Translations under genes and position numbers: made by a program | Shown: in pieces, positions 2,869 through 56,229 of the stretch | Layout: each line of letters opens with the position of its first letter | Position numbering within the stretch: the stretch's first letter is position 1 | Notes under the pieces: generated by a model | Told to the model about the DNA's origin: nothing | What the model saw: only the letters and a program-made list of their open reading frames with translations | Database searches by the model: none | Source of the DNA: Gossypium raimondii | Taxonomy: Eukaryota > Streptophyta > Magnoliopsida > Malvales > Malvaceae | DNA: 64,000 bases | Direction of reading: 5' to 3' | NCBI RefSeq assembly: GCF_025698545.1 | Contig: NC_068571.1 | Coordinates: 45,603,733-45,667,732 of the forward strand

Positions 2869-2902
2869 CTCTAAACGGGCTGATATATGAAAATTGAACT
2901 AA

Positions 2903-23707: not shown

Positions 23708-24414
23708 TTTTTTTTAATTCCAAGGTCGATCCTGTTTTCATTCACCGCAAATTAAAAATTAAAACAAATAGCGCAGAAGATTAAAGCTATAAAATAAGCA
23801 ATGAAGCATCAAAACAATCCCTTAAAAATGAGCGAAGGTAAAGGGGGAAATGTTTTAAAGAAGAACCTGAAAATAATGAGCAGCGCCGACCCAGAAAGTT
23901 GTTGCAGACTTTGCATTTAGGGTTTTATTGTCATACTGTCTTCCGTCCCCAAACCCTAAACCCAGTAATAAAGGAACTTGAAATAATGATTTATCATTAA
24001 ATATTTTAAAATTTTAGGATATGTTTGAAAATTAGAGAGTTGTTGAATAAAAGTGTAATTATTATAGTAGCAACTTTACTCTTTTGTAATTATAAAATTA
24101 TAATTTTTAGACGTGTTTGATTGATAACGAAATACAATTTATATTATAATTTCCTTTTGTCATATAAAATTATTGGTATAATAAAAATAAATTTTAAACA
24201 AGTAACAAAAATTAAAATTAATTATCATATGTATTATGTTAGTTTAAAAAGTATTCAATAACACGATTATTAATAAAAATAACAAGAAAAACAAACCTCT
24301 TATCTAATTGTTCTAATGCATATTTGTTGGGTTATACACTTTATTATCATTTGAATTTGAATCTACATCATTATGATTATCAAGATTTTCTTCTTCTATG
24401 TAGTTTTTGAAGTA
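23708..24414. other. 5' leader/promoter of the NIF-like gene and flank
   Basis: The minus-strand transcript should start in about 23750-23960 ('cctaaatgcaaagtctgcaac', 'gggtttggggacgg' read on minus). I cannot place a TATA box or start with confidence. 24000-24414 is AT-rich without a gene. Confidence 0.35.
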
Positions 24415-33436: not shown

Positions 33437-33644
33437 TGTAGGGAGGTTTGGCTATTCTAGAGTCGTTTGAAATAGAACTAGTTGGTTGGTTAAAGATTCT
33501 ATTAGTTGGTTAAATAATAGTTTCTCTCATTCTATATGTGTATATATACTCTCTTCTATCTCAATAATATTCAAGCTAAAATTTCTGATTCATTCATGAG
33601 TAAACAAAGTGTGTATTCTTGCATTTGTATGTGAGTTACTTTCA
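33437..33644 (+). repeat. Left (5') LTR of the interrupted copia element
   Basis: The right edge at 33644 is firm because the primer-binding site TGGTATCAAGAGC follows directly. The left edge (TGTAGGGAGG, 33437) is a guess. 'tatatgtgtatatatac' near 33532 is a plausible TATA region. Confidence 0.5.
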
Positions 33645-33657
33645 TGGTATCAAGAGC
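33645..33657 (+). other. Primer-binding site, initiator tRNA-Met
   Basis: TGGTATCAAGAGC, one base longer than the usual TGGTATCAGAGC. Confidence 0.75.
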
Positions 33658-36443
33658 TCTTTTCTAGGTTGCTTTTTGTTGTGCTTGATGGCTGTAACTT
33701 TGCATGATGTGTCTGCCAATGAAGCAATTTCTCCAAGAAATTCTGCTCCTGTTCACAAATCCTCGTCACTATGTTTTCCAGATAGAGAAAGGGTCCACCG
33801 AGTTGTTCAATCTTTCCCTCGCCATGATACAGGGAAGCTTAAAGATGATACTTTTGTTCAATGGCAACATCAACTGAGGCTTATCATCGATGGATATGGA
33901 CTTACTCACTACGTCAATGGTACTATTCCAACTCCATCTCGATTTGTGCCGGATTAGAAAGGGAAGTTGATTTATAACCCAGGCTTTGTATCTTACCATC
34001 AACAAGATAAACTTCTTGCATCTTGGCTATTATCCACAGTTAGTGGCGATCTTTTATCGCATTTTACAAGTGCCAACACAACTCATGAAGTATGGAGCAC
34101 GACGTGCCATTTGTTTGCCGCAGCTTTTAGTGCCAAGATCTCTCAGGTCTATGAAGGTTTTTCGGTGGCTGCCCCGAACCTTAATGCTTTTTCTCCTCAT
34201 GGGTTTTCATCACAAATTCATTTGTCCTATGGTCCGTTTTCCCATGTTTTATCTGCTGGCCCATTATCACAAGCTAGCCTCATGGCCCAAGTGAATCAGG
34301 TAACTTATTTGCCAAAGTCGAGTGGGTCAATGACATATGGGCCTCCTACTATGTTTGGGTCTGTTGCTCCGCCCTATGGGCCTGCTGTTATTAGTTCTTC
34401 TGCACTTGCTTTGCCCAATTCTATTGGGCCTTGTTTGTCGAATGTTGCTACTGCTGGGACTTATTTGCCGGATACTGCTGGACTAGTAAATGTTTCGTCC
34501 AACCAACCTATGTCTTTCCTATCTACCTCCACCGAAATGTCTGTTTGGTACCCCGACTCTGGTGCTACAATTCACGTCTATCATGAGGCTTCCATATTGA
34601 GTAATACGAGTGAATATTCAAATAAAATTCCTCTCCTTATGAGTGATGGTTCTTGTGCTACTATTGCGCGCTTAAGCCATAGTGCCATTTCTACTTCCCG
34701 TAAATTATTGCACTTAACAATTGTGTTACATGTACCTACTATTCGTAAAAATTTACACTCGATTTCTCAGTTTGCTCAAGATAATAATGTGTTTTCATCC
34801 ATTTTATTGTCTTGTAAAGGATATACATACCAAAGAAATTTTGCTTCGAGGCCACACACATGAAGGATTATATCAGTTTTCTCCGGTGTCTTCTTCCGAC
34901 AATATAGGTTTAGTTCAAAGTTCTGACATTTCTCTCCATAATGCAGAATTGGGCATTAGTTCTTCCTTGACTACTAAGAGTAATTTATTTGAGTTGTGGC
35001 ATCGCCGACTTGGACACCCGTCGTTGAGTATTCTCCAGTTTCTTTTACAATCTTGTAATGTTTCTGTTCCTACTAATAAAATGCAACATGTATGTTCTGA
35101 TTGTCAACAAGGGAAATCACACAAGTTACCATTTTCGGCTTCTACCATCGTGTATCATCATTCATTTGATCTAGTTGTTTCTGATCTATGGGGTCCTGCC
35201 CTTGTTAGTTTCGGGACTAGTTGGTATTATGTTTCATTTGTTGATGTTTGTAGTAGATTTACATGGTTGTTTTTCATTCAAAAGAAATATCAAGCTGTTG
35301 ATTGTTTTATGTGATTTCAAAAATTGGTGAAAATTCAGTTTGGCAAAGACATAAAGTAGTTTTAAAGTGACTGGGGTGGTGAATTTCGCCCATTTACTTC
35401 CTTGTTGGCTCAACATGACATTATCCATTGTGTTACATGTCTACACACATCCGAGCAAAATGGGATCGTCGAACAAAAGCACTGTCATATAGTTGAAGTT
35501 GGGTTTACATTACTAGCTCAAGCTCATTGGTATTGGGGATATGCCTTCTCATATGCTGTTCATTGATAAATTGGTTGCCCACTCTAATTTTTCAAAACCA
35601 GTCTCTGTATTCGGTGCTTTATGGTACTTATCCAGAATATAATTACCTTAATGTATTTGGGGGTTGTTGCTACCCGTACCTTCAACCGTGTAATCAACAT
35701 AAATTGGAGTTTTGGTCCCAACCGTGTACTTTTCTTGGCTATAGCTTTCAACACAAAGGTTATCACTATCTTGCTTCAGATGGACGGATGTTTATTTCTT
35801 GACATGTGGTGTTCGATGAGGATCACTTCTTGTTTGCTGCTTCTAGTGCTCCATTGACATCTCCAACGTCAGATCGAGTTACCACATTTTGCCCTATCAT
35901 TCACTCCTCTTTTTCACTCAAGGTTTCCTCAAATGTTGCTCCATTGATTCAACCGAAGGTTTCTTCCTTCGAGCCAGTCCCAACCACTTTATTTCAGAAC
36001 TTGAATCCTGATGCCTTCCAACTATGCTAGTCCTTGTTTCGACAGTAACTTCAACACTTCCTCTCCTACACAAGTAGTTCTCGTTTCTATTGATTATCTT
36101 CAGCCTTAGCCTGTCAATACTCATTCTATGGTCACTCGATCGAAGGCAGATATCTTTAAACCGAAGGTGTTGACAGTTGAACTTACTAAACAAGAGCCTC
36201 ATAATACTGATGAATCCTTTTCTAGTATGAAATGGAGGATGATTGCTCAGGAGGAATATGATGCTTTGCTTCATAACAACACTTGGGCTTTACTTCCTTT
36301 ACCTCCGAGACGAAAGACAATTGGTTGCAAATGGTTTTTTAAAATCAAACAGAATCCGGATGGTATAGTGGTTCGCCAGAAAGGGCAGTTGGTTGCCAAA
36401 GGGTGTTCTCAAGTTCGTTGGTGTCATTTTCGTGAAACATTAA
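33645..36443 (+). pseudogene. Ty1-copia polyprotein remnant (gag to reverse transcriptase start)
   Basis: In order on the plus strand: gag (33687-34140, broken by TAG at 33955-33957), linker, protease active-site region ('WYPDSGATIH', near 34545), GAG-pre-integrase and the integrase HHCC zinc region ('LWHRRLGHPS' to 'CSDCQQGKSH', about 34995-35120). Then come integrase core segments ('VVSDLWGP', 'SDWGGEF', near 35370) and the 'FGGCCYPYLQP' to 'FLGYSFQHKGYH' region (35660-35770). The start of reverse transcriptase ('NTWALLPLPP', 'IGCKWFFKIK', about 36280-36350) comes last. Several stops and at least one frameshift (near 34800) break it. It is cut at 36443 by a Harbinger insertion and resumes at 43857. 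Confidence 0.88.
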
Positions 36444-36860
36444 CAGTGCGTTTGGTTCGCTGTATTGGATTAGAGGTGTATTGGATTAGAGGTGTAATAG
36501 CAAATCAACTGTTTGGTTGAATGTAATGGAATAGAGGCGTAATAGTAATCTTGTGTTTGGTTGAATGGAATAGAGGTGTAATAGCATAATGGAAAAAACT
36601 AAAATGACTAGAATACCCTTAGCATAAATTTGTTTTGGTAAATGATTATTGTTATTGTTATATAAATTTTAATAAGGTTATTATTATCAATAATAAATAT
36701 TTTAATCATATTTAACCATAATTATTATTAAACCCATTTTAATTAAAATATATAATTTCATAAAATTCTTAATAATTAGCGAAATTTGTTTTGGTAATTA
36801 TTGTTATTGTTATTTAAATTTTAATAAGATTATTAATATCAATAATAAATAATTTAATCA

Positions 36861-37345
36861 TATTTAAACATAATTATTATTAAATATATTATAATTAAAA
36901 TATATAATTTAATAAAATTCTTAATGATTAATATTCTTATATGAATTTACTCAAATCATAATATATGATCTTGTAAAATATAAATTAACATAATTATTAT
37001 TAAATATATTATAATTAAAATATATAATTTAATAAAATTCTTAATAATTAATATTCTTATATGAATTTACTCAAATCATAATATATGATCTTGTAAAATA
37101 TAAATTAACATAATTATTATTAAATATATTATAATTAAAATATATAATTTAATAAAATTCTTAATAATTAATATTCTTATATGAATTTACTCAAATCATA
37201 ATATATGATACTGTAAAATATAAATTAACATAATTATTATTAAATATATTATAATTAAAATATATAATTTAATAAAATTCTTAATAATTAATATTCTTAT
37301 ATGAATTTACTCAAATCATAATATATGATACTATAAATGAAAATT
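36861..37345. repeat. 120-bp tandem repeat, about four copies
   Basis: Three near-identical 120-bp units (36961-37080, 37081-37200, 37201-37320), with partial, more diverged units on both sides. Each contains 'atatatgatcttgtaaaata' and ends 'tatgaatttactcaaatcata'. They lie in the 3' non-coding part of the Harbinger element. Confidence 0.95.
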
Positions 37346-37768
37346 TGAAATAATTAATATTAAATATATTTTATTTAAAATATATGATTTAATAAAATTT
37401 AAAATAATTATAACTAATAAATTATATTTTATGAATTTGTATAATTTAAAATAATAATTATTACATATAATTTAATAATTAATATTAAATTTCATAAAAT
37501 TCTTGATAATAAATTTTCAATTATGAATTTATACAATTTAAAATAATTAATATTAAATATAATTTAACAGTGATATATAATTTCATAAAATTCTTAATAA
37601 TAAAATGTTCTTATATGAATTTACTAAAATCAATATATAACTTGAGAATTATATTCTGCATAAACATAATTAACTTATATTAAGAAAATGTTAGATGAAA
37701 ATGAAATTGTACATCATAATCCATATGTTATATAGTTTTACAACATGAAAAAGTTTGAACATTGATAT

Positions 37769-38858
37769 TTAATGGTGAGAAAGAAATCTTCTGACCCATT
37801 CCAATCGGGCAACAGAAGGTAAACTAAAGAAAACGATCATTTGAGTTGGATGATCGGGAATTTTACTCAAAGCATCATACCGCTGATCGTTGGTTAAACC
37901 TTCAATTGACCATAAGGCTGAATATAAATTTGCAGCTTTCTCTTCCATCTTTTCCTCTGACTTCTGCTGAACTACCACCTCGGAGGCCATAGTCCTACTG
38001 ATTTGATCGCCAACGGCCTGGATTTTTTCCCCCAACAAAGTGGCAGCCTCCTCAAATGAAGAATACACATTATCACGAGCATCAGATTTCTTCTTTCTGT
38101 TGTTTGAAGATGAGGAACCCCCTTGGTCTCTATCTCCTCGCGGATCTGTGCGAAACATCCATGTCGTCTAAAGAGACGTCGACCATGATCATAGAATGTG
38201 TTTCTCTCTTCATTCATATCTCAGTAATACGTTCATCCTCAGATGTATTTCTTCAAGAACATCGCAATTGTTTGAGCGTCTTTCCTGTTCGATCTCTTGC
38301 GTATATCGCGAGAAGTGGTTGTAGTAAGGAAAAACGATGTCCGAATCGAGAGGCTTCTTTGTGACTCTAAAAAATGAGGAAATCATATTAGTTATAAGTT
38401 TTGTAAAAAACAAATAAATACTTGATAATACATTTTACCTTTACATAGGATTCCTAAAGCGCATCTTGACAACAACGAGTACGCTTATGCTCGTCCCAAC
38501 CAAAACCACTGTTGTTTTGGCCATTAAGCATATCGTAGACGACTGACCATTCCCTTTTTAGGCACCTAATCCGAGATTCAATATTTGGTTTCGCCTTCAA
38601 CATTGCTCTTGGTAAAGCCTTTTCTAGCATTTTCTCTAGCTCGTACAAATAACCGGCTTTGAACCCGGTATCAGCATTAAATGTTCCTACATTGTGCAAA
38701 TCCACCATGCAAGAAACCAAGGCTGCATCCTCCTCTGGAACCCATTTTCTTTTGCTTCCTCGAGAAGCTTGAGAAGAAGCACCCGTTGGTGGAACACCTG
38801 ACATATTGTTCTTAAGAAAAAAAAACAAATTAACATTATTTACTATTTTGAATATCAT
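37769..38858 (-). pseudogene. Harbinger Myb/SANT-like accessory gene, broken
   Basis: Read on the minus strand from an in-frame internal ATG in 'MSGVPPTG' (about 38802). The first exon has a trihelix/Myb-SANT-like region ('KRKWVPEEDAALVSCMVDLH', 'KAGYLYELEKMLEKALP', 'REWSVVYDMLNGQNNSGFGW'). After an intron near 38450-38370 comes 'DIVFPYYNHFSRYTQEIEQE', then a shifted frame. The C-terminal part (38158-37769) has a Lys/Ser-rich linker and 'IPDHPTQMIVFFSLP'. PIF/Harbinger elements use such a protein as the DNA-binding partner of the transposase. Comparison with the copy at 51798-52799 shows that the middle is out of frame here. Confidence 0.8.
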
Positions 38859-39072
38859 TTAATTGTTGGTGAACAGTTTATAATATTATATCGGTAGTTC
38901 AATACTAAATTTAAATTTATAACACATACTTAATGAAAAGATAATTACATTATAATTCAACAAAGTTTAGTACAATACAAAATTTTAATCAAAGACCACC
39001 AAAGTTTCATAAAGTAGATACATAAAATAACATCAACAAATCAATTCAAACTGAATTTGTCCCTAAACCTAA

Positions 39073-40469
39073 CTAATTTTTAGATGCTTGCCATTCATCG
39101 AACATTTGGTTGGCTAGTTCCATCCTCCAAGTTGCCCAAGCATCCGATGGATGAATATTTGTGATATTCGGTTCATCGTCATCCACCACATTAGTAGGTA
39201 ATCCTTCTCCCACCTCCGCTTCAATGGGATCAATACTCATATGGGTTCGAATAAAATTATGGAGCAAACAACATGCAATAATAATTCTATTGTGCACCCA
39301 TACAGGATAAAACGATGGACTCCTAAGTATTCCCCATCTAAGTTTTAATAAGCCAAAGCATCTTTCAATGACATTACGTCTTTGAGGCATGTTTCATATT
39401 AAAAAACTCTTACGGAGAACTTGGCTGATAACCCTGACGCCACTCGTTCAGATGATATCGCTGTCCTCTAAATGGTGCAAGAAATCCCTCACAATTTGTG
39501 TATCCAGCATCAACTAGATAATAACAACATATAAAATAAATTGGCTAAAAAATGATTAATTCAGCAAACAAAGTTTGATCTTAATGAATAATTCAAATTC
39601 CTCTAAGTATACACTGTACCATGAGGAACTTTTAGTCCATGTCTTCTACTAATGGCATCTCGAAGCACCCGTCCATCGGCAACTGAACCTTCCCAACCAG
39701 AAAGAACATAAACAAATTGCATCTCAGGTGTACAAACACCTAGCATATTTGTTGCTATGTCACATTTTCGGGTTCGATATCTAGGTTTATCAACTGTTGG
39801 CACCCTAATCTTTATGTGGGTTCCATCAAGAGCACCTAAGCAATTCTATATCACATGATATAAAACCTTGTGTTAGAATACTAATTTAAACCTAAGTCAA
39901 CTAAATGTTGTACAAGCTATATATAAAACTCAGTCTACTACCTTAAACCATTTTCACCTTGTGTCAGAAGAATCAGCTGTAATTGGCTCCGGCTTTTTAA
40001 ATAAGACATCTTGTAAGTGTATGACAGCATTTAAAACACTATGAAATGCTCTGCTTACAGTTTCCCCGGACCTTCTAAAGTGATGCTTGATAACTCGATT
40101 TTTCAGGTGATGGGAGATGATATGTAAAAACATTGCTACTTGCTCATCAACAAGCATGAACCTTGACGACTTCAATCCCCCTATCGATTCTAACATCTCA
40201 CATAGTTTAAAAAAGGCAGTTCTATTCATCCTAACTTGTTCAATACAAGTCTCGTCACTAGCATATACAAGCCTCTTCACATAATCCCATTTTGTATAAA
40301 AATCTAAGGTATATGACCTAATCCTTGGTCTATAAGTCTGTAGGCTAAGGCTAGCACCCATTCTAAACAAGAACCAAATCGCAATTCTACAGATTTCTAA
40401 CCATATTGTCAATGCAAGACCAATTCTTCTACGCCTCACACTTTGTGCAATTAAAGGCAGACGAGCCAT
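39073..40469 (-). pseudogene. PIF/Harbinger DDE transposase (HARBI1-like), broken
   Basis: Read on the minus strand. First exon 40469-about 39943, from 'MARLPLIAQSVRRRRIG' through the helix-turn-helix-like 'RMNRTAFFKLCEMLESIGG' and 'GETVSRAFHSVLNAV'. An intron follows (about 39942-39850), then 'NCLGALDGTH' (first Asp of DDE) and 'GWEGSVADGRVLRDA' (second Asp). A second intron follows, then 'YLVDAGYTNCEG' and 'RNVIERCFGLLKLRW' (Glu). A TAA replaces a Gln codon in the stretch before 'EFFNM' (near 39410). A one-base gain near 39390 shifts the frame before the catalytic Glu. The enzyme is therefore probably dead, though its three catalytic residues are still encoded. Confidence 0.88.
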
Positions 40470-40836
40470 TACTGCAACATATTAAAATTAGAACACACTA
40501 TCAATGAATTGAAGTTGCAATTACACATTATCAAATAAAAATAAACAATACAAATTTAGAACACACGAAGCAAAATGGTATCTACTAAATGATATCGTTG
40601 CAACAAAGTTAGATATTTTGGTTGGCCACATTTTAAAAAAAAAAATCCTAATTATTAATAAATTGTATTACTAAATAATTAGAAGGTTAAAAAGTGAAAA
40701 GATTTTCTAAGCAACATTATTTTTTTGGATTGTATGAGGATTTGCTTTAATGATCTTCTTTCTCTTGTTTTAAAACTTTTATAATATTTTAAATTTAAAT
40801 TGAAGTTATTAAAATATTAAATTTCGTGATTTTTAA

Positions 40837-41061
40837 TAAAATATTAAAGTCCTTATTTTAATTATTGATTAGTCCTTATTTTAATAAAATATTAAAGTCC
40901 TTATTTTAATTATTGATTAGTCCTTATAGCAATATAATATTAAAGTCCTTATTTTAATTATTGATTAGTCCTTATTTTAATAAAATATTAAAGTCCTTAT
41001 TTTAATTATTGATTAGTCCTTATAGCAATAAAATATTAAAGTCCTTATTTTAATTATTGAT
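40837..41061. repeat. 48-bp tandem repeat, 4.7 copies
   Basis: Unit 'aaaatattaaagtccttatt...gattagtccttat', with ends alternating between 'tttaat' and 'agcaat'. It lies in the 5' non-coding part of the Harbinger element, upstream of its transposase. The alternation suggests duplication of a 96-bp pair. Confidence 0.92.
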
Positions 41062-41667
41062 GTAATTTTTAAAATCAAATGACTCAACTAAAATTATTAT
41101 AGAATACAACTTATTTTAAAATATACATTTTATCAATGAATGTTTAATTTTTTTTCAATTTTATTTTCCGAGTTACAAGATCCCATTAGCTATAAATAAT
41201 GTTACATTTTATCGATTATATTAGAATTTTAACTTCCACTCTCAAAATAACTTTTATTATTATAATTTATGATTCATAAATTTGTTAAGAAATGTATAAA
41301 TAATTTAATCAACAATTATAACTTAAATATGGAAGCTCCACTTTCAAATAAATTTATCAAACAAGACACTAATTGCAACATGTACTGATTTCTTGAAAAG
41401 TTGTTTGAGTAAAGATATCATTGAACTTTGTCAAGATTTTAAGATCGAGCAAAATCTGATTCCATTCGAAAAAGATAATTCAAAATTAGATTTTCATCAA
41501 ATCAAGTTATTCAAAAATTTCAAGTTAACTCAAATAAACTGTTTGAGCTTTGATTTCAAGTCAAATTAAAATTTTACAATTCAAATAATTCGAATAACAA
41601 ATTGGAATAAATGCTCTTTTCGTCCCTGTCAGTATTGAAAATGTATAAATTGGTCACTCTCTCAGCA

Positions 41668-42640
41668 AAAATGTAACACCCTTAACCCTTATTAATAACT
41701 TTTTAAAACTAGTCATGACCCACAACCGAATAACTAAGATCAAAATAACATATACAATATTGAACTTTTCAAAGAACCAAAAATTATACCTTTTATTTAT
41801 TTACTAACTTGTGCACATACACATATAAATGTGTGCCACTTACCATTTCTCAAATCCATAATCCAAGTAAATTTATACATATACGGTCATTATAAAACTC
41901 TCAAACCATAGTAAGTATGTGTTTTCATGATATTCACCAAAACATATACTTATATATATGTGTCATTAGTAATTCATGCTTTAGCCGATTTTACCATTTT
42001 ATCTATTAAGGCAGGTACATGCTTATGAAATATAAACACCAATCCAAATCACATAGTCCCATACATCTTCTAAACAAGTATGTTCAAATTTTCCTATTTA
42101 TTAAATACTATATTCCCAAATACCGAATGATCTCATATCAATACCTTAATTAACTTAAACCACTGTTGCACCAAACATGTACAACTTGAATAGCAATTTA
42201 TTGAACTATACATACAAGTTATCGATTAACATATGAATTTCGGCCTAAAACTTACAAATTCATAAATTGCATTTCACCTAAAACCATGCATTATATCACT
42301 CAAAAGGAATCAAGTACAAAACCAAATATATATACTTACCAACTAGCATTCTTCCTCTAACAAAAAATAGTTACATTTCCATATAGACACAGATTTGCCA
42401 ACTTCACATGATACTGAATTTTAACAAGAGAAACGGCCATTCTTTAAACCAATCATCCATCATTTTGATTATATTATAACAAAAGACCACTTATCACACA
42501 CACCCACACAAAATTCCAAACACATGCTTTCAGTTGTTTCACGCTCTTAGGAGAATACCCTAAACACTATGTTCGAATCTTGTCATCCGTAGAAAAATCA
42601 AAATCAACAATTAACACAATTAATCAGAAGACTACAAGTT
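41668..42640. repeat. Possible gypsy LTR fragment inside the Harbinger element
   Basis: 'tgtaacacccttaaccctt' at 41668 resembles the terminal sequence of cotton-type gypsy LTRs, and the following kilobase is non-coding. I find no second end or duplication, so this is tentative. Confidence 0.25.
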
Positions 42641-43856
42641 TGCACATTATTTTGAGCATTACTGCCATTGATAAGCAATCCAGGCAGCAATTAACATAAT
42701 CAATCACGCGACCGGAAAGCAAGAAAAAACAGACTAAGACGAACTCAACAACCATTCAGAAAATTTGCTCAGAGCTAAGATCTTTTGAGCTCTAATGCTT
42801 AGTTACCAATAACAAATTAAATTATTAAATTCCCTTGCACTTAAAATAGGAGAATAAAGATTTAACAAGCATATAGAACCATCATGATCTACCAGATTAA
42901 AGATAAAATAGAAATTGGAGAACAAAGAAACAAAAATTGACATTCCCATCAGGCAATTAGATCAAAACAAGAATTAAGCAAAAAAAACAAAACAAAACCC
43001 ATTAAAACTAACAAAATCAAGCATACCCAGATCAATAAACATGAAATCAAACACGATAAAATGGAGATCCAAACGAGTTATAACCCAAAAAACTAGCCAA
43101 AAACAAAAGTTACCTTCAAAGAGAATACTCCTACTAGTATTGGAGATAAAAAAAGGACTCGAAAATTACAACAGAACAAACAAAAATCCAAGATTAGAAG
43201 AGAAGAGAGAACAAAAATCCGACTATTGTTTTCAAAGGATTGTCAGTCCTATGCTGATGAATAAAGACATACATGCATAATTTTCCCTACAATATCCATA
43301 ATAACAATATCAACAAAAAACAGTATGCATTTCGGGTAGCCTAACCAACAAATGTTCCTACATTTCAATCACACCCGTCCATCCAAACAAAAAAACTATG
43401 GAAAACTAACCTGTTAATCAGCAAATCGGGGCACAATGAAGAAGAACCTGTAATGAGAAAAGGGGAAACCGATTAGATAAAAACAATAGAAAAGGTTGAC
43501 CTCGAATTCGACAGAGAGGAAAACTAACCGATGACGCAAATCGACAGAGAGCAAATCGACAGAGAGCAAATCGGCCGAAAAAGAAAAGAAATGAAACGAG
43601 GGGAGCAAGCTTGAAGGAACGGAAGAGGAATACAGGGGATAGGGGGAGGGTAAAACAGGGAGGGTTTGCTGAAGCCGTTCCTAATCTGGGCAGAAGGGGG
43701 GGAATAGAAATCGGTGCTTTTCACCGATTAGGAAAGTAACGGGATACACGCGTATTAGCAATACGCTGAACCAAACGGCGGATTAGAGAGGTATTATGTG
43801 GGGCCCATCGATTAGGGGTGTATTGGCATAGCCAATACACCAAACCAAACAAGCTC

Positions 43857-43950: not shown

Positions 43951-44059
43951 AATTTATCTAAAACCCTAATTAATCTTATGAAAGAACTTAAGAATCGAAA
44001 TTAGAACCCCTAATCAAGTCTTATGAACCATAATTAATGCTTGGAAATGTTATTGCTCA

Positions 44060-44568
44060 AAAGGCTTGTCTATCTCTATCTATATACAAATGAGGAAGGG
44101 TGTATTCCTTTATATAGGCTAAGGCCCTCTGATCTTACAACTAGGATTTAATACATTTGATGATTAAGATTGAGTCTCTAGAACATTCTCTACAAGTCTA
44201 TACTTGCCTAGGCTATTATAGAGATTTTGAAATGTTCTACTTGGTTCCATAAGGTTTAGGTCTCTTTCTTGGACTTCCGAACTTTTTCGAGCCTTCTAGA
44301 CTCTTTTGATGTGTTCTAGAAGTGTGCGTTACATTCCTAGAGACATGGGTGTAATAAAGCCTATATATAATGAATCCAAGATTAGCATTAACTAAGAATA
44401 TGTATCCATTATTGTTATATTTAATTTTATAAATAAATTTATATTTTTAAAAAGTTATATTTCAGAAATATATACTTTTTAATGATATTTCATACATATA
44501 TTTAAATAAATACCTATAAGAGAGTGATGTCGTGACACTAAGAGTCAGAATACTCAAGGTCGTGACAT
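44060..44568 (-). repeat. Direct repeat copy A, possible 3' LTR of a small element
   Basis: About 450 bp matching 46178-46660 (shared 'gtctatctctatctat', 'gaaatgttctacttggttcca', 'atgtatccattattgttatat' types). Copy A ends in 'gtcgtgaca' (TGTCACGAC on minus) followed by a purine-type tract (CTGGGGGAGT on minus, 44571-44580). This is consistent with an LTR and polypurine tract in minus orientation. Confidence 0.5.
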
Positions 44569-45208: not shown

Positions 45209-46177
45209 TTAATCCTACACCTAGATCTGATTTACTAAGAGGAGTGGCCTTGGGCTTTCGTGTGGTCTTTGTTACCACATTAGTTCGAGGATCATTTCAT
45301 GGTTAAGACTTACTTAGCGTTCGTGTGACACTATCACTGCATTCGCTATAGACGTATTGCCACCCAATAGTTAACTTTTATAAAGGGGAACCCATTCGTC
45401 AACAAATGATGTTCTTTTAAACTTGGACTTCTTGCATTGGAGTTAGTTGAAAGCTAACCTATAGTAACTATTTTAGTTTTTAAAACTTAAATTTAAGAGT
45501 CGTACCCTGCCTTTGTAGCTAAACCCTACCAACTCATCTTCATTCCTTTAATGAAATTGTTTTACTATATTTTTTTCTTCTTGTTACTAGAATATTGCTT
45601 TTGTTTTGCTAATTCATTTGTGTTTTTGTCTTTTTTTTTGTGCTTGTATCATTTTACATCCATCATCACAACATTCGAAAAATATTAAACCGGTCTACTT
45701 TCGACTCATATCAATTTTAGGGGAAATTTTTTAATACCATGTAATCACACTCTCCAACATGAGATGTTTGGTTTAAGAAACAAACTCCATGTTATTTGAA
45801 CTTTCAATAATAAAATTTAAATGTAGCATTAAATATAGATAATTCGAGAGTGTATATTTTAATGGGAAATAGTTTATTAAATCGTAACATATTTAAAAAA
45901 AAACAATCTTTTTATAATAATCTATTGCTATTTAAAATCGTCGAATCACTTAATACTACAGTGAAGAGATTTGAAGAGGCCTAAAAGCATCACCAAAAGG
46001 CCATACGATTGCTAAATTAGTATTGGCATTACCAAAAGACTTTAGTTTCATTAATTCGTAGCGTTAGGCTTGGGTGTTACGCTAACAAATGCCTGAATCA
46101 ACTCTAACAAGCATGTTAAGAGAGCACACAAACAACACTTTGAGAGTTGAGAAATTTCTTGGAAGTGTTATTTTTGA

Positions 46178-46660
46178 AAAAAGTTGTCTATCTCTATCTA
46201 TGTACGAACGAGGGAGGGTGCCTTCTATTATATAAGTTAATGCCCTTTGATCTTAAGACTAGGATTTGATACATCTGATGGTTAAGCTCACGTCTTTAGA
46301 ACTTTATCTACATTCTATACAAGTTTATACATGGTTAGAATATTTTAGAGTTTTCGAAATGTTCTACTTGGTTCCACAGGAATTAGATCTCTTTCTTAGA
46401 TTTCTAAACTTTTTTAACCTTCCAAACTCTTTTAACATGTTCTAAAACTATTTACCACGTTCCGAAAATATTTGAGATTTTTTTTTAAGAGTGCTCCATT
46501 TTGAAATATTGATGAGACATGTGACTCGTAAAGTCTATGCCTAATGAATATGATATTAGCATTAGATTGGAGTATGTAACCATTATTGTTATATTTAATT
46601 TTTATTTTTAGAAAGTTATATTTCATAAATGATATTTCATATATATATAAATAATTATGT
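46178..46660 (-). repeat. Direct repeat copy B, possible 5' LTR
   Basis: Partner of 44060-44568, similar along most of its length with many substitutions. The outer end lacks the clear TGTCACGAC of copy A ('ggtagtcgaagg' is found instead) and no primer-binding site is obvious at its inner edge. An LTR origin is likely but not proven. Confidence 0.5.
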
Positions 46661-48205
46661 ATATAAGGGTAGTCGAAGGGAAATCTTCAGATTATAGCTT
46701 AGATTCTAAACTATTACTCGATTTTCAAATAATGTAATTCAATCATTAAAATATTAATATAATATTAATCAAAATTTTTCATCAACCAAATCCATTTTCA
46801 AAACTATAGAATACTTACGGGATGTTTAGTTCACTGTAATGGGTATGCTATTACAGCCCTATTTCGTGGGCCCCACCTATTCTGTCGTTTGGTTGGGTGT
46901 AATGCCCTATTACGGGCTTATTACATTACCCCTATTCAGTGCAATTTGCTACTTTCTATTCCCGAAGGAAAGCTCAGTTTTGCTTCCGTTTTGTTTCTCC
47001 CAATTTCTTCTGCCCTATTTTACCCTCCCAACCCGAAAGCCACCTCCACCCTCTCCCTCGCAACATCAATCAGAACCACCCCTTACATTTTCCTTCTTTT
47101 GTTCCTGAAGGTAACTACGATCAAAACTAGAGGATCGGCCACACCAAAAAGTGAGTTTTTCTCAAATCTGATAACTCCCCCTCTTTTTTCCCGCAATGAA
47201 TCAATTCAATTAATAATTTTGAGGCCCATCAATTTTTCTGCTTGTTTATTGTTTAAGTTCCAGGAAAATCGAAGAGGCCTCATTGTTTTCCAGCAGGAAC
47301 TAGAGCTCTGACAAGGTTTTTGATCTCAAAATTCTGACAAGGTTGCCTGTAAGTGGGGGTGTTTCTTTAACTTCAAACCTTGCAAATTGAGTCTCTTGTT
47401 TTAACTTTCTTGTTTGGTTCTTGATTAGGTCTCAAGATTTCCTTGATCTCCATCCTTTCTGGGTATGTTTTGAATTCCTTTTTGTCTGAAACTTGTAAAA
47501 AATAGTGTTTGCTTTTACCAATTGCATTGGTTTATTGATTGATTTTCATAGAAATTGAATGGTGTTGTTTGGTTTTATTGAAATATGGATCCCTTTTTGT
47601 TCATCCTTTCTGTATGTCTTCGATTCTTATATGGCTCCAACTCTTCATTTTTCTTGAAATTTTCGTGTTCGACATGTTTTTAGACATGGGTTCGGGGTAT
47701 CAAACATTTATACCCGAATCTGAGCAACATAACTTTGATGTGCCTGTGATAATATTTTGTGTGTTTTATGTAAATTTTCTGAATAGTCTTTCTATTTTTA
47801 GTTGCAACATATTCTTGCTTAATTTTGGATATTCCGTGGACTTTGTTGTTCGGTTCTTGATTGGCGTCAACTTCGTTTGCAGTAATTCTTGATTTTAGTT
47901 TATGCACATGCGTCTGAGCGATTCTTTGCAGTATATGTAACTGTAATATTATTATGGTCAATTGAGATTAAAATAAGCTCTATTGGCTATGAGTGCATGA
48001 GTTATGGTTGAATTTGATTAAATGAAGCATCTTATTAAATTTCTATATTTGACTCTAAAATTTTACATTTAGCTGATATTAACATCTCTGTAGTGACTTA
48101 TCCAAATCATCTCTGCGCAAATTATGCAGCACCTTTCAGCTAAGCATTGTTATGATTTATGAGGCTTAACCAGAAGGTATTGATGTTCTATGTGAAATTT
48201 TATAG

Positions 48206-48280
48206 GTAAGAGCTATTAGCTACCGATTTGCTCCAGACATAAATCGTTGGCAAGCTGAAGCTCTAGTTGCAATTCAAGAG
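48206..48280 (+). pseudogene. CENH3-like exon captured in the Harbinger element
   Basis: A 75-bp open stretch bordered by an acceptor (ttttatag) and a donor-like GT (gaggttggt), phase 0 on both sides, coding 25 residues that include 'ISYRFAPDINRWQAEALVAI'. This matches the alpha-N/alpha-1 to alpha-2 segment of plant centromeric histone H3. The Trp in NRWQAEAL and the non-canonical spacing distinguish it from ordinary H3, which has 'RFQSSAVAALQEA' there. I find neither the preceding exon nor the following one (starting near AAED) within 1 kb. It looks like a single exon with intron flanks moved into the element, not a gene. Assignment rests on recalled family sequence. Confidence 0.75.
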
Positions 48281-50605
48281 GTTGGTTAACTTATCCAATC
48301 TTCTAAACTAAAGAAAAATTGTAAGACTTCAAAATCAAATACAGAGAAACACAGTAAAACACATATATGCTGATTTTTTGCATATGGTTGTGGATGTGTT
48401 TGGTCTGTTATAAATCATGCTTCCTGACCTCCATATTATCATGAATGCATAATATTCACATGCAAATTATTTTACCCTTATTATCATGTATGCATCGGTT
48501 GTCCATAAAATGAACTTGCGTCGAGTGGTATGATTATGCTAAATTGCTAATTTCCATTTGCAGAATTGAACTGTATGATTATGATGAGCTGTAGTCTGTT
48601 CAGTTTGTCATAGATCATTTGAAAATAAGTAACATATATTGTCTTTCTGGTCTATGGTATATGCAGCAATTCATCATGTGCATTTTTTAGGCTATTAGTG
48701 AAATATGTTGTTAGATTAAGCTGTGTTGTGGATCCTGTGAGTTGTACATGTTGCTTTTGTTGAAGAGCCAAGCCTTTTTCATTTTCTGTGCTGTCATATT
48801 GCCATGTATTCACATACAAGCCTTCTATATTCTTCTTATTTCAGGGGCTATAGATTTTAGCAATTAATTGAACTTAATTTTAAAGCACAAGTTTGAATGA
48901 ATTCCTTCTATTTTGCTTGTTTGTATGCATGTTACTTTGGTTTTGCTGGAATTCTTTGTTGTGAATGTAAGGGATATAAGAAGACGTTTGATACCTCTGT
49001 TATAAGCATTGGCTTAGACGATAAAGTGATAGATGTTGCTCCCTTAAGGAGTTATATTGACCATGATGAGTATTTAAGGCATCATGGGCTCAATTACGAT
49101 AATTCATCATTTAGCTCAAGTTTCGGTGTCTATGAGAACTATATGTTCTGTTTTTTTATGGTTTACTCCATAGTAATGTTTTTCTTTATATTTTGTAAGT
49201 GGTGATGTAATAAGTTGATTTTTATTGGTATTGAAAATTTTGAATTTGGGATCAAATTTCTTAAGTTGAGCTAGTTCGAAAATTTTAATCGAGCAATTAC
49301 AAGACCTGTACGAAATTATAGGATCAAACCACTAGTGATTACTTAGATGAGCCGTTAGATATAATACAATGAATAAATTGTAAGGTGATTAAAATTGAAG
49401 GAATTAATTAGAAATATTTTATTAAAATAAAACTAATTAAATGTGTATATTCATATACAACGATTAATTAAAAATATTTTAAATAATTAAATTTAAAATA
49501 TTATTTTAATAATATTACAAATATATATCAACTTTTGAACCATTATAAATTAAACCCAATCCAATCATGAGTAAATAAAATAAAATAAAAATTGGATCAT
49601 TAGATCTAATCAAGTAAACAACTTGATTAAAAACCAATTATTCAATATATTAGTGGTAAAAAATTTCAAATCCACATTGAAGTTGAGAAACAATCACTTT
49701 ATTCTTAATTTTCATTTAATAATAAAAATAAATAATGAGACACATGTTGATTTCATAATTTTGGTTGTGGTACCAAATAATAATCATAATTAAAATTAAT
49801 TAAAATGCTGGATAAATTACTTGTATAGTGGATTTTTTTATTTTGATAAGATTAAAAAATCATATTTAAAAGATGCAAAATGGTAGTAGTTCGCCTTGGT
49901 TGGCTTGTGTCAAATGATATTAGGTTGGTCTGTCCGATATGAATTTAAATAAAATAATTTTAAAATTTATTTTATATAAATTTAATTAAAATGTTAATAT
50001 AAAACTATATATTTTTAATATTTTAGCATTTTAAGAAATTTAAATGAAGTTTTAGGTGTCTCAAGTTGAGTTCCAAATCGAGCTTAAGTACTAATTATTC
50101 ATTGTTGTTATGATTGAAAGTGCTTTTAAAAATTGTTTAAAGAAAAATGTGGTTTGTTAATGTTAAATTTGTAACATTGTTGTCAAAAATATGGTTAAAT
50201 GTTAAAATGTTCTTCTTAGAGATGATAGTGTAAAGTAAAAATAGTTAAGTTACATGAGATTTAAATAATTTAATACAATGATACAAGAGATATAAATTTT
50301 AAATATTTTTTAAGTAATTAATATAAATTGCAAAGATAATTTTAATTTCTATTTTTCGCTTCGTAAAGATTCTAAATCTATATTGTTCATTTTTCTTTGA
50401 TAGTGTGTTATTGCTTCCTATTGAAGCGGCTTGTTTGATTGCTTCCTCCACCCACAGTTGAGCGTCTTCTTTTCACACAACCACTGTAAGTTCTTTGGCA
50501 ATAAAATTATTTAATTTTATTTTACTGTTATTGAAATTATGATTGGAGAAATGTGACCCTTTTAGTACGATTTGACAATATGGAACACATTAATATCTTG
50601 CAGTA

Positions 50606-51509
50606 ATGGCTCGCCTGCCTTTAATTGCACAAAGTGTGAGGCGTAAAAGAATTGGTATTGCATTGACAATATGGTTGCAAATCTGTAGAATTGCGAGTTG
50701 GTTCTTACTTACATTGGGTGCCAGCCATAGCCTACATACTTATAGACCAAGGATTAGGTCCTATATTTTAGATTTTTATGCACAACGGGATTATGTGAAA
50801 AGACTTATATATGCTAGTGACGAGACCTGTACTGAACAAGTTAGGATGAATAGATTTGCCTTTTTTAAACTATGTGAGATGTTACAAATGTTAGGGGGAT
50901 TGAAGTCGTCAAGGAACATGCTTGTTGATGAGCAAGTGGCAATGTTTTTACATATCATTTCCCATCACCTTAAAAATCGAGTTATCAAGCATCACTTCAA
51001 TAGGTCCGGGGAAACTGTTAGTAGATCATTTCATAGTGTTTTAAATGTTGTCATACGCTTACAAGATGTGATATTATCTAGTTGATGCTGGATACACAAA
51101 TTGTGAGGGACTTCTTGCACCTTTTAGAGGACAACGATATCATTTCAACGAGTGGCGTCAGGGTTATCAGCCAAGTACTCCGCAAGAATTTTTTAATATG
51201 AAACATGCCTCAGCACGTAATGTTATTGAAAGATGCTTTGGGTTATTAAAACTTAGATGGGGAATACTTAGGAGTCCATCATTCTATCTTATAAGGGTGC
51301 ACAATAGAATCATTATTGCATGTTGTTTGCTCCATAATTTTATTCGAACCCATATGAGTATTGATCCTATTGAAGCGGATATAGGAGAAGGATTACCTAG
51401 TAATGTGGTAGATGACGATGAACCGAATATCGTAAATATTCATCCATCGGATGCTTGGGCTACTTGGAGGATGGAACTAGCCAACCAAATGTTCAATGAA
51501 TGGTAAGCA
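50606..51509 (+). pseudogene. Harbinger transposase with the catalytic middle deleted
   Basis: Starts 'MARLPLIAQSVRRKRIG' just after a splice-acceptor-like 'tatcttgcagta'. It is intact through 'GETVSRSFHSVLNVV' (50606-51070). At about 51075 it jumps directly to the sequence coding 'YLVDAGYTNCEG'. Compared with the copy at 39073-40469, the intron, 'GALDGTH' and 'GWEGSVAD' parts are gone, so two of three DDE residues are lost. Short shared TAT-type bases at the join point to a microhomology deletion. The later part (51200-51506) is open through 'RNVIERCFGLLKLRW' and ends at a TAA where the other copy has CAA. Confidence 0.88.
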
Positions 51510-51797
51510 TCTAGAAATTAGTTAGTTTTAGGGGCAAAATGAGTTTGAGTTAATTTGTTTATGTTATTTTATGTATCTAGTTTGTGAAACTTTGGTGGTG
51601 TTTGAATTGTTTTTTGTATTGTACTAAACTTGTTGAATTATAATTTAATTTCTTTTCATTCATCATTGGTTATAATTTTATACAGTGTTGAGCTTTTAAT
51701 TCATGATATTGAACTTAATTTTAATTTTATAAAGTGTTCACCTTTTGATTCATGATATTAATAGTAATTAATATAATTTTTTTTTGTTAAGATAATT

Positions 51798-52799
51798 ATG
51801 TCAGGTGTTTCAGAATCAAATGTTTCTTCCCAAGTTTCTCGAGGAACCAAAAAGAAATGGGTTCCAGAAGAAGATGCAGCATTGGTTTCCTGCAGGTGGA
51901 CTTGCACAATGTTGGAACTTTTAATGCTGATGCTGGGTTCAAAGCTGGTTATTTAAACGAGTTAGAAAAAATGCTAGAAAAGGCTTTACCTAATGCAATG
52001 TTGAAGGCTAGATCTAATATTCAATCGAGGATTAGGTTACTAAAAAGGGATTGGTCAATCGTGTATGACATGCTTAATGGCCAAAACAATAGCGGTTTTG
52101 GTTGGGATGAGTATAGGCAGCTCGTTGTTGCTTTATTATCTTATTTTTACCAAACTTATAACTAATATGATTTCCTCATTTTTATAGAGTCATAAGGAAG
52201 CCGGTTAATTCAGACATCGTAGTTTCCCTTACTACGACCAACTTACTGTCATATACGCAAGAGATCGAGCTACTGGGAAAGATGCTCAAACAGCCACTGA
52301 TGTTATTGAAGAAATAGATGTTCAGGATGTACCTACTGCAGATATTAATGAAGAAAGAAACGAATTCTATGACTGCGAAGCTGATGTCTCTTTGGATGAC
52401 ATGGATGTTTCTGCTACGGAGCCGCAAACAGATAGAAACCAAGGGGGTTCCTCATCTTTAAAGAAGAAAAAAAAGAATTCTGATGCAACTGATCATTTTT
52501 CTTCTTCATTTCATGATGCTGCCACTTTATTGGCAGAAAACATGCGGGCCATTGGCGAACAAATTAGTAGGAGTATTGCCTCCGATGTGGTAGTTCAACA
52601 AAAGTCAGAAGAATTCCAGATCATCCAAGAAAAAGCTACAAATTTATATTCAACCTTATGTGAAATAGAAGGTTTAACAGTGGATGAGCGGTATCGAGCA
52701 TTGAGTAAAATTCCAGATCATCCAACTCAAATGCTCGTTTTCTTTAGTTTACCTTCGATGTGCGATTGGAATGGGTCAAGATTTCTTCTTGACCATTAA
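51798..52799 (+). pseudogene. Myb/SANT-like accessory gene of the second Harbinger
   Basis: ATG at 51798 ('MSGVSESNVSSQVSRG', 'KKWVPEEDAALVSC'). One base is missing near 51893 compared with the other copy (tgcaggtgg against tgcatggtgg), shifting the frame, which then continues in another frame as 'VDLHNVGTFNADAGF' to 'DMLNGQNNSGFGWDE'. After an intron near 52110-52190, a long frame runs from about 52230 ('YYDQL') to 52799, with a Lys-rich linker and the end 'IPDHPTQMLVFFSLP'. Except for the early frameshift and a stop near the exon join, this copy keeps its C-terminal half better than the first. Confidence 0.82.
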
Positions 52800-53250
52800 A
52801 CTTCTTATTTCATTGATGATATTTTCGTAACTTTTTCATTTGTAATATTTGGGATGGTATGTCATTACAATCTTCTAACTTTTGATGTTCTAAAAGCGTA
52901 TAACATATGGATTATGACATAGAATTTCATGAATTTCATTTAACCTTTTGTTAATATATGAAAATTATGTTTATGCAAAATATAATTCTCAAGTTATTTA
53001 TTACTGCTAATATTTTTTATTGTAGAATAATTAAATTATTTGTTCCACTAATGATATTTTAGCACATTAAAATATGTATTGCGTTTAGATATAATAAAGT
53101 AGATTATAAATTATATTTAATAATAATTATTTTAAATTATATTTTATAGTATTATATATTATGATTTTAGTAAATTTATATAAGAATATTTAATACTAAG
53201 AATTTTATTAAATTATATTTTATAGTATTATATATTATGATCTTAGTAAA

Positions 53251-54136
53251 TTAATAAGAGACTAGAAATTGGTTGGGTCTTGGGTGGAACATGATTGATT
53301 GTCCAATGTCAAAATCAAGCAGGTGGTGGGGCACTGCACTTCACTAATGGAAACAATAGAGAACAGAACATCAACGATGACGACACAGGGCATGAGCTTG
53401 TTTGTGGGACACTTCCAAGACTGTGCTGCTGGTGGTGGTGACGGTGGACCCACACCTTTCTCTTTTTGTTGAAAGCTTATTGTTATAAACATCATCCAAA
53501 TTGAATCAGTCAGCAAAACTTTTGCCGGCTTTGAAGGGGGAATTTTGATATTACAAACAAAATTATGACTGCGTTTGGAAATTTCGTAGCCAATATTTAC
53601 ACTTCTTATTCCTACGGGTAAGAAAGAGTTGAAAAAACTGATCACAACACCTAAATCAATGCCCAACATTTTTGTGGTCAAGAGTTCGATAAATGATATT
53701 TTTTGGGGGGTAAATTCAGCTTCTAAACTCCTCTTGAAAAATTGAGTCAACATGGAATATCCAATGAGACGTCAATGCTAACCCAACCAAATTCATAACC
53801 AGGGCCTACAGAATTTGATAATCAAATTCGAATTCAAATAAAATCGGAATATTTGAATTAGAAAAAGAAGCCCAAAAGCTTTACCCTTTCCTCAACATTC
53901 AGACCAAAAACAAAATTTTCAAACAAAAGAGATTTTAATTAATTGAAATGCAATCATCTGAATTAAAAACTATAGAAGCTAACTCTCAAAGTCTAATACA
54001 ATACATAAAACCATAAATTTCTTATTGTTCAGCTAAGCTCAGTAAATATGATAAAATACTATGAGATATGTAGTAACATACATAAATGGTTCTCCCTCCA
54101 ACCTGCAAAATAGGCGTTTCACACAATGATGTGTTT
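53251..54136. other. 3' flank of the arabinopyranose mutase gene, unassigned frame
   Basis: 54060-54136 should be in the 3' untranslated region. A minus-strand open frame of 163 codons (53753-53262) is longer than usual for this AT-rich DNA, but its product has no motif I recognise and no codon pattern that convinces me. I leave it uncalled. Confidence 0.35.
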
Positions 54137-56074
54137 TCACTTGGAAGCACCATTAGGAATCTTGGCGGATATATCGCCCGATGGGTTCAGTTCATCCCAA
54201 GCTTCAATCCATGTCACCATAGCATCCGCCAGCTTATTGAAGTAGTCATCGACCTTGCCGAGTTTCGCCTTCACTTGCTTGGAGATCTCAATGTAGCATT
54301 TCTGAACGGTGGTGCAGTCCTTCGGAAGGGCAACGGATTGGAAGAACGGAATCAACTCTTCTTGCCAGTAAATTCCTTTGTATTCTTTCTTAAGGTTCAC
54401 AAACGGGTTGCTCGCTTTGCTGTGCCAAATGTAGGGAAGTCCGGTCTTCACTCCCCATCCGAGGTGATCGCAAATAACCTGGTATTCGAACAATGCAGTT
54501 TAATCATAAGCTTATAGGGGAGAAAAAGATTAAGTAGACGCTAGCGTGAAAGATAAGATAAGATACCTTCGTGCACCAGCCAGCCCACATATCATCGTAT
54601 CGTCCAATTGGTTGACCATCTCCCATGAGTCCAAAGTACATTGCAGGGCCGATCAATTCTCGGTTAAATGCCAGATTCATTCCGCACATGGGGAACAAGG
54701 TTCCCTTCGGAATCGTCATTATTGCGTCAACATACCTGATATGGAATTCAACATATGATTTAGATTTCATTCAAATGAGTAGACATATAAGTAGCACACA
54801 ATGTGGAGGATTATACTAGTATATATATACCTGGTGTTCCTCTCGAGTGGCTTGACAAGCTGTGTGGGAGCATCATAATCCGGGATGTTGAGCCAGAGAC
54901 CGTGTGAGACGGCAGTGGGAACACCCTCACGGAGGCTGAAAGGGTAGCCACGAACGAAGTCAGCACCGGATCGGTATGGGTCATAAAGAGTGTTGAAGAA
55001 AAATGGAGTGGATGGACTCAGCAGGTTCTGTATGTGCTGCTCCAATGCATTGATGTCTTTGCCAGATGGATCTTTAGCAACCTGCAAAACCGGAACCGGA
55101 ACCCCTCAAACTTCCGATTTTCGTATATTGCCGATGTATTGAATGTAAACCACCAGACATTTGATTCTCAGATCTCATGAAAATGCATCAAAATACAGCT
55201 AAATCTAAATCACATTCTAAAATGTAAGCTCTAAAATCATCTCCAAAGCAATTAGACACACATAATATGCATCCAAAAATCGACCAACATTTCAAGATTT
55301 ACAAATCAAACATGAAAGACAATAAAAAAGAAGAAAACACTATGTTTCATAACATTGTTAGGAAAGGCAGCTAAGGCTTATATTAAATTGGTAAATGACT
55401 AAATTTTGGACAAACCAAAGCAGGAATTGAGTTGAAAACATACCATGGAACACAGATCAAAAGATGTTATGTAATTGCAGATCCAAATAGCAAATAAAAG
55501 ATAGGAAACTACATTAAAGAAAACAGCTTTTTAAAGTGACCAAAACAGCAAACAAGATGCAAAATTCCCAAATCAAAGTCAAGATCTAAACATCCATACA
55601 TCAAGATCCGAAACTTAAAACCAAAAGTAAAACAGTATTAAAAAAGTTGGATCAAACGCAGATCTTTAAAATGATGACTGTTTTCGGAGAAACCCACCAA
55701 AACCCAAAATTCAAAAACAAAAAATAGAAGAGGGAAGAGACGAGGGTTGAGCTTACAAAGCAGTCATCATCAATGGTATAGATGTATTTCTTCTTGGAAA
55801 CCATGTACCCAAAGCACCTACAAGCAGAATCCTTGAAAGAGATACAAGAAGCCTTAGGACCCAAAATCCTGTTGATGTCGTTCCTATTGTAAAGCTCATA
55901 ATCGAAGCCTTCAGGGACCTTGATAGTCTTGGTAGGATCACCATCTTGAACAATGATGAGATGGTAAGGCTGGAAAAAGGGTCTCCACATCTCCAAAAAG
56001 TCCAAGTTCCTAATCGTGGGAATCACGATGTCGAGCTCATCTTTCAACAGAGGAGTTGGAGAGACGGTCGCCAT
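54137..56074 (-). CDS. UDP-arabinopyranose mutase / reversibly glycosylated polypeptide, 4 exons, 359 aa
   Basis: Interconverts UDP-arabinopyranose and UDP-arabinofuranose on the cytosolic face of the Golgi, supplying arabinofuranose for cell-wall polymers. Exons: 56074-55757, 55081-54831, 54735-54567, 54478-54137. GT-AG introns, consistent phases, 1080 nt, normal length for class 1 RGP/UAM. No signal peptide, as expected. The start [20 protein letters not shown] fits the family, so an upstream in-frame ATG is not used. The nucleotide/metal-binding DDD is at residues 102-104 (YTIDDDCF). Arg157 in '[11 protein letters not shown]' is the likely counterpart of the reversibly glycosylated Arg158 of rice UAM1. 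'[10 protein letters not shown]' and '[13 protein letters not shown]' are other conserved blocks. No lesion seen, so it is probably functional. Confidence 0.96.
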
Positions 56075-56161
56075 TGGAGAAAAACTTGGACTTTTCAGAG
56101 CAAAGCAGGGAGAGGGGATGGAAGGTCGAGTGTGAGAGGGGAGGAAAGGGGGAAACGGGGG

Positions 56162-56197
56162 TTTGTATAGGGGAGGAAAGAGCATGGGTGGCACGTG
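56162..56197 (-). promoter_or_regulatory. TATA-like box and G-box upstream of the mutase gene
   Basis: On the minus strand a palindromic G-box core CACGTG (56192-56197, in GCACGTGC) is followed 22 bp later by TATACAAA (56169-56162). That is about 90 bp before the ATG. Spacing is that of a normal plant core promoter with a short leader. Confidence 0.55.
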
Positions 56198-56229
56198 CAA
56201 AGTAAATGAGGTGGCGTTTTAATTGGAAA

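Follow-up and report, generated by a model that had tools for sequence, protein, structure and literature searches.

A PIF/Harbinger transposon of Gossypium raimondii carries a piece of the gene for the centromeric histone CENH3. It was found in a stretch of 64,000 nucleotides (hereafter the window), on the chromosome that also holds the native CENH3 gene. The reading that we consider very probable is a single capture of CENH3 DNA by a PIF/Harbinger element, followed by spread through transposition, with the fragment now travelling as a passenger without a protein. It is drawn from the identity and extent of the fragment, the left end of the element and its target-site duplication (TSD), the copy number, the right junction of the fragment, the loss of the CENH3 frame and the cargos of sibling elements. 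According to this reading, a PIF/Harbinger transposon in an ancestor of G. raimondii would have copied CENH3 from intron 2 to intron 5 directly from DNA, and the copy would have been placed in a variable interval between the conserved left end and the transposase module. The copying step probably involved template switching or gap filling linked to the repair of a transposition break. The element would then have transposed and carried the fragment to dozens of loci, where the dispersed copies may have been trimmed, rearranged and sometimes joined to more captured gene pieces; the window copy would be a defective descendant.

A preliminary description of the window had picked out a 75-bp open exon with acceptor- and donor-like borders and phase 0 at both ends, and had assigned it to CENH3. 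Both points hold. The stretch is open over its 75 bases, with AG before it and GT after it, and the exon structure of the native gene agrees: the native exons upstream of exon 5 total 255 nt and exon 5 itself measures 75 nt, which gives phase 0 at both ends. Only two of the 75 bases differ between the window exon and the native one, and one of these changes alters the protein (S to N). The longer stretch 47927-48634 matches positions 2118-2840 of the native CENH3 locus with 94.5% identity over 723 aligned columns (E reported as 0.0), so that a chance match is ruled out. The protein of the native gene retrieves Gossypium CenH3 entries, its best three named database matches showing 97-99% identity, and the best protein matches are therefore CENH3. 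Used alone as a query, the 25-residue exon 5 peptide found no match in PDB or Pfam.

The native CENH3 gene lies on C7 at 31.56 Mb (minus strand) and is intact: its seven exons have GT/AG borders, and its coding sequence of 462 nt specifies 153 residues. Among the non-transposon loci it is the best genome match of the fragment. Its protein matches the Pfam family Histone (PF00125, E 6e-32), and alignment with H3 reveals a one-residue insertion beside DISRW. An extra residue in loop 1 of the histone fold is a hallmark of CENH3. Canonical H3 as the source of the exon was ruled out by this loop-1 insertion together with the named CENH3 matches. A further CENH3 locus, C8:3745199-3747299 (L009), is a pseudogene that retains the exon-intron layout. 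It was considered as the native gene and rejected because of stops in exons 4 and 5 (exon 4 by eye; exon 5 also in the alignment of the copies). Its divergence from the native gene is about 0.41 (K2P) in introns 4 and 5, and it appears to be an older CENH3 duplicate. A full CENH3 pseudogene unrelated to the element thus does exist in this genome, and it sits on C8 and not in the flanks of the window exon.

The fragment is larger than first described. The preliminary description had proposed a single exon accompanied by portions of its introns; intron sequence is indeed included, but pieces of exons 3, 4 and 5 are present. Aligned to the CENH3 gene of the same genome, the captured block opens with the end of intron 2, runs through exon 3 and intron 3 into part of exon 4, and then takes in most of intron 4, exon 5 and 354 bp of intron 5: parts of three exons and four introns in all (Table 1). 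It spans roughly native positions 1673 (from L018 and L019, two other copies of the fragment) to 2840. Besides the 94.5% match described above, native 1744-1984 is matched by window 47095-47309 at 72.7%. The presence of introns indicates that the source was DNA and not mRNA. Among the four copies of the lineage to which the window copy belongs (lineage A, below), L018 and L019 retain exon 4 in full together with its donor (five-row alignment); in the window copy and L010 only, about 320 bp stand where the remainder of exon 4 would be. All four have an intron 4 insert of about 250 bp in common. At the right junction the native intron 5 sequence reads ... AAGTAACA and then gives way to the element. 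We also considered that a CENH3 promoter had been captured to drive the transposase, and rejected this since the fragment begins in intron 2.

Table 1. Features of the CENH3-bearing element in the window (position 1 is the first base of the window)
Feature	Position	Strand	Remarks
Target-site duplication TTA	46815..46817	.	Sequence; left end
Left terminal inverted repeat, PIF/Harbinger	46818..46846	+	CGGGATGTTTAGTTCACTGTAATGGGTAT
Conserved left end of element family	46818..47077	+	Where listed family rows stop
End of CENH3 intron 2	47078..47110	+	Alignment with native gene, L018, L019 and L010; left edge approximate
CENH3 exon 3	47111..47150	+	40 nt, against 37 nt in native gene; AG and GT borders retained
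CENH3 exon 4, first part	47258..47309	+	52 of 119 nt
Non-CENH3 sequence	47310..47890	+	About 320 bp, then about 250 bp
CENH3 intron 4, distal part	47896..48205	+	Local match from 47927
CENH3 exon 5	48206..48280	+	75 nt, reads VRAISYRFAPDINRWQAEALVAIQE
CENH3 intron 5, first 354 bp	48281..48634	+	Right capture junction comes next
Shared module, 5' part	48648..50593	+	First 600 bp recur in siblings with other gene fragments
Transposase, N-terminal part	50594..51085	+	ORFs and similarity
Transposase, C-terminal part	51072..51506	+	DDE_Tnp_4, E 2.1e-14, matched from profile position 78
Myb/SANT-like second ORF, degraded	51791..52165	+	Myb_DNA-bind_3
Subterminal AT-rich repeat units	53103..53264	+	Element similarity ends; no right terminal inverted repeat

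That the carrier is a PIF/Harbinger element with its border at 46818, as had been proposed, was confirmed by the terminal repeat that follows TTA and by the nearest copy, L010 on C4, which matches from 46817. L010 and the window copy share 95% identity over 4298 columns and 92% over 1963 columns. L010, about 7.7 kb long, is a complete element that is flanked by TAA on either side and has terminal inverted repeats at both ends; L012 is likewise complete, with TTA on both sides and terminal inverted repeats at both ends. The 3-bp TSDs are thus of the TWA type expected of PIF/Harbinger elements: the window copy shows TTA on its left, L012 is bordered by TTA and L010 by TAA. A DDE transposase of the PIF type is encoded on the same strand as the CENH3 fragment, with part of the gene deleted: about 470 bp of the L010 transposase are absent from the window copy at 51069-51075. 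For the N-terminal half of the transposase, the Pfam search gave no fitting family. The match of the second ORF to Myb_DNA-bind_3 (E 0.0011, 20.3 bits) falls under the curated cut-off of 23.6. In other copies the AT-rich subterminal units recur about every 120 bp. A right terminal repeat of the window copy was not detected in the 64-kb window. The transposase deletion and the lack of this repeat indicate that the window copy is defective.

The window holds further features around this element. A second PIF element occupies 36444-43856 on the minus strand. It is flanked on either side by TAA (plus strand), its transposase ORFs lie within 39073-40481, and it gave no match to CENH3. Immediately left of the CENH3-bearing element lies a direct repeat (44040-44520 and 46158-46667), pieces of which are approximately 75-91% identical. 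On the right, a putative gene for a reversibly glycosylated polypeptide (UDP-arabinopyranose mutase) was read from ORFs at 53262-56218 (minus strand), and may end near the truncated right end of the element. Within a long ORF at 22193-23713 (minus strand) a 54-bp unit occurs four times (22364-22580), and putative ORFs of broken copia-like retrotransposons were seen by eye at 1560-2898 (minus strand) and 33604-36520 (plus strand).

Other copies of the fragment, for which the preliminary description had suggested a search, are abundant. The 750.8-Mb assembly was searched with the fragment and the best 40 of 74 candidates were scored, so the copy number is a lower bound. The 42 matches obtained correspond to 38 distinct loci. 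Two are the native gene and the C8 pseudogene; the others, at least 36 and including the window, bear a CENH3 fragment. Exon 5 could be aligned in 34 of these 36 and is missing from L018 and L019. Further parts of the element were present near the fragment in all 18 loci examined over 9-10 kb (L010, L012-L028); the 17 other loci (L050-L066) were seen as stretches of 349-406 bases and presumably also lie inside elements. Six additional places with exon 5 similarity are known from the list of matches alone. Eight more places with the left end of the element continue rightward in the match listing, six into exon 3 and two with a piece of exon 4 (C1:34509853, C1:20344066, C1:42881738, C13:46825874, C12:20283895, C11:31879594, C9:10833734 and C7:1395413), and probably represent more CENH3-carrying elements that lack exon 5.

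The copies could be divided into two lineages. Lineage A comprises the window copy, L010, L018 and L019, and lineage B the 32 others, in which the match begins 27-28 bp before exon 5 and a cluster of changes, mostly one added base, is found at the exon start. In the members of lineage B (L012-L017, L020-L028 and L050-L066) the native GTAAGAGCTATTAGC is altered in this cluster, for instance to GTATTGGACTGTTAGC in L020, while the neighbouring sequence is similar; the cluster also abolishes a donor-like GTAAGA. The right capture junction is identical in the window copy, L010 and L012, and hence in both lineages, which argues for one capture; L013 has a deletion at this junction. Most likely, therefore, CENH3 was captured once, a conclusion based on the junction and not on a tree. 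In a seven-row tree the branching among native gene, window copy and L010 is left as an unresolved fork, lineage B alone being starred, so that we rejected the tree as proof that the element copies are monophyletic. In the same seven-row comparison the window copy is the one nearest to the native gene (97%), a closeness that could stem from a second capture or from gene conversion.

CENH3 is not the only host gene from which the family has taken sequence. Three sibling elements (L067, L068 and L069) share 93-96% identity with the window copy from the start of the module at 48648. L067 and L068 contain exons of a class VIII myosin (SH3_VIII-1_N, E 3.9e-19; Myosin_head, E down to 1.9e-23), and L069 terminates in the same myosin piece. 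Other exons of L069 were read by eye as a MATE transporter, for which the Pfam search gave no match. The family left end was matched in L067 (70%, 187 columns), the stretches of L068 and L069 being too short or unmatched. Some elements contain two captured cargos. In lineage B, an mTERF piece (PF02536, E 1.3e-6) is present in L023 and L024; outside elements it is matched most closely, with no more than 93% identity, by a tandem cluster at C1:2.04-2.08 Mb. L027, L028 and the L059 locus, also of lineage B, contain a piece with a PP2A-type catalytic exon (PDB E 2.5e-8; Pfam E 0.048) that is 98% identical to C5:127627-128544, which is either the donor or a further element. L016 gave a weak match to aminotransferase class IV (E 0.0037, under the cut-off), and a myosin piece on its opposite strand was read by eye, the Pfam search giving none. 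A search with the family left end (best 40 of 241 candidates) listed 43 rows: 17 end at the left border of the CENH3 piece (47059-47077), 10 end earlier, 13 extend further and 3 are small separate pieces. This pattern of stops, together with the varied cargos of the siblings, indicates that the interval between left end and module has acquired several host gene pieces.

The captured CENH3 piece is not recent. Between the native gene and the window copy the K2P distance is 0.053 in intron 4 (217 sites) and 0.029 in intron 5 (354 sites). Exon 4 encodes KSKRPHRF in L018 and KSKRPHYF in L019, and exon 5 reads DINRW in the window copy and L010. Compared with the CENH3 proteins of the genus, the exon 4 and exon 5 matches of the element thus have the combination KSKRPH/DINRW, which is also seen in the proteins of G. 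stocksii and of the A subgenome of G. hirsutum (KSKRPHRF with DINRW). In the D subgenome of G. hirsutum the protein reads KLKRPHRF and DISRW, and the native G. raimondii CENH3 has NLKRPHRF and DISRW. G. robinsonii (KSKRPHRF, DISRW) and Gossypioides kirkii (KSKRPHRF, DITRW) vary at the DIxRW site, which therefore gives no clear direction. On the simplest reading of these peptides, the capture would predate the S to L change in the D lineage.

Could the window simply hold a CENH3 pseudogene that arose by ordinary duplication, with a transposon inserted beside or into it? A genuine broken duplicate does exist on C8, but an origin of this kind has next to no chance of being correct. The fragment occurs at no fewer than 36 loci and joins the element at one and the same right junction in three copies (window, L010 and L012), of which the last two are complete elements with TSDs; moreover, the window sequence is 69% identical to the C8 pseudogene, against 94.5% to the native gene. 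The single capture by a PIF/Harbinger element being preferred, the fate of the captured piece has to be considered. No copy with a complete CENH3 reading frame was found: compared with Gossypium CENH3, the element has parts of exons 3-5 at most, without the start and without the C-terminal half of the histone fold. The preliminary description had suggested that the exon, if transcribed, could give spliced chimeric RNA. A transcript joined to the element or to a neighbouring gene might then yield a protein with a CENH3 helix. We consider this very unlikely, despite several features that would suit it: the fragment lies on the transposase strand, the window copy has AG/GT borders around a phase-0 open exon, and L018 and L019 have open exons 3 and 4 with every border intact. 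Likewise, the donor GT is kept in all 34 exon 5 copies and the acceptor AG in 31 (L010 and L053 have AA, L065 has AC), and when exon 5 is read in a frame anchored at its 3' end, 24 of the 32 lineage B copies contain no stop (counted by eye), so that the exon may be open through another entry phase. Nevertheless, the CENH3 frame from the exon start is retained in two copies only (window and L010) and lost in the other 32, the nearest copy, L010, has AA as its acceptor, 25 residues of a histone fold do not make a domain, and none of the 19 proteins inspected by eye, from 120 listed, fuses CENH3 with the element. Constraint on exon 5 was also rejected as a sign of function, because the exon is no better conserved than its flank. 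In 22 lineage B copies the mean pairwise divergence of the exon is 0.108 (0.114 without its first 14 bases), a figure inflated by clustered changes and local misalignment; it is 0.055 in 99 bases of the downstream intron and 0.026 in 27 bases upstream. Most likely, the CENH3 fragment is passenger DNA without a protein product.

An effect through RNA should be weighed as well. CENH3 is an essential gene. Transcripts or small RNAs of the fragment could dampen CENH3, or the fragment could shield the element if the host cannot silence sequence of an essential gene. Matches of the required length exist: 78 of the 442 21-mers of the native coding sequence are found exactly in at least one of the 36 copies, 17 of them in the window copy, which shares an uninterrupted identity of at most 37 nt with the native coding sequence. 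In addition, the accessible text of a 2026 review (PMC13317346) presents the genes captured by maize elements as reservoirs of siRNA, with a conflict when the donor is essential. In principle, the copies could thus have an RNA effect on CENH3. Recent ancestry alone, however, explains the exact matches, and exon 5 is not conserved above the neighbouring intron, contrary to what selection for a match to the exon would produce. Action through RNA is therefore judged unlikely, and we infer that the fragment has no RNA effect. Still less probable is a specific form of the shield, in which small RNAs directed at the element also strike CENH3, strong silencers are selected against and the Harbinger lineage is protected. 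If this were true, CENH3 dosage, and hence centromere size, would be tied to transposon load in cotton; CENH3 dosage matters for cell division.

The preferred reading, a passenger spread by transposition after one capture, makes this a multi-copy case from cotton in which transposase-bearing PIF/Harbinger elements have captured host gene sequence. For genome annotation it implies that dozens of CENH3-like exon matches in G. raimondii are transposon cargo. Such cargo exons can distort counts of CENH3 copies, and can confound the design of primers or guides and the mapping of reads at this gene.

Pack-TYPE PIF elements are described, in the accessible text of PMC8903248, as carrying gene fragments between terminal inverted repeats and spreading by transposition, and as commoner in maize than in rice. 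The definition given there demands a non-autonomous element, and the pipeline labels elements with a transposase match as autonomous or autonomous-derived. As in that class, host gene fragments lie between terminal inverted repeats in L010 and L012; unlike it, the cotton elements do have a transposase, which is present in the window copy and, by similarity, in L010 and others. Pack-MULEs and gene-capturing Helitrons likewise capture and amplify pieces of host genes; they belong to other transposon superfamilies, and Helitrons also transpose by another mechanism. Both are mentioned in the accessible part of the review cited above (PMC13317346). Among the literature matches listed, none concerned, by title or abstract, a CENH3 fragment within a Harbinger element, which is no proof of absence.

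Finally, the closest likeness is found in the Pifvine-3 PIF elements of grapevine, in which, according to the accessible text, the transposase is accompanied by a long 5' region (up to 3.5 kb) with host exons and introns, some of the host gene pieces being common to several copies (Benjak et al. 2008, PMC2528002). The cotton elements have the same arrangement: host exons and introns occupy the 5' region of transposase-bearing, multi-copy elements, and the window copy has 3.8 kb ahead of the transposase ORF. They differ in their host, in having CENH3 among the cargos and in the several cargos that adjoin one module, and we liken the two by arrangement and not by descent. Different cargos beside one module fit the part of the grapevine report available to us (PMC2528002), and suggest that a 5' cargo interval is habitual in some plant PIF lineages. 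Gene capture by PIF elements is already known from grapevine (PMC2528002) and maize (PMC8903248), as far as the accessible texts describe it; CENH3 is an unusual cargo.
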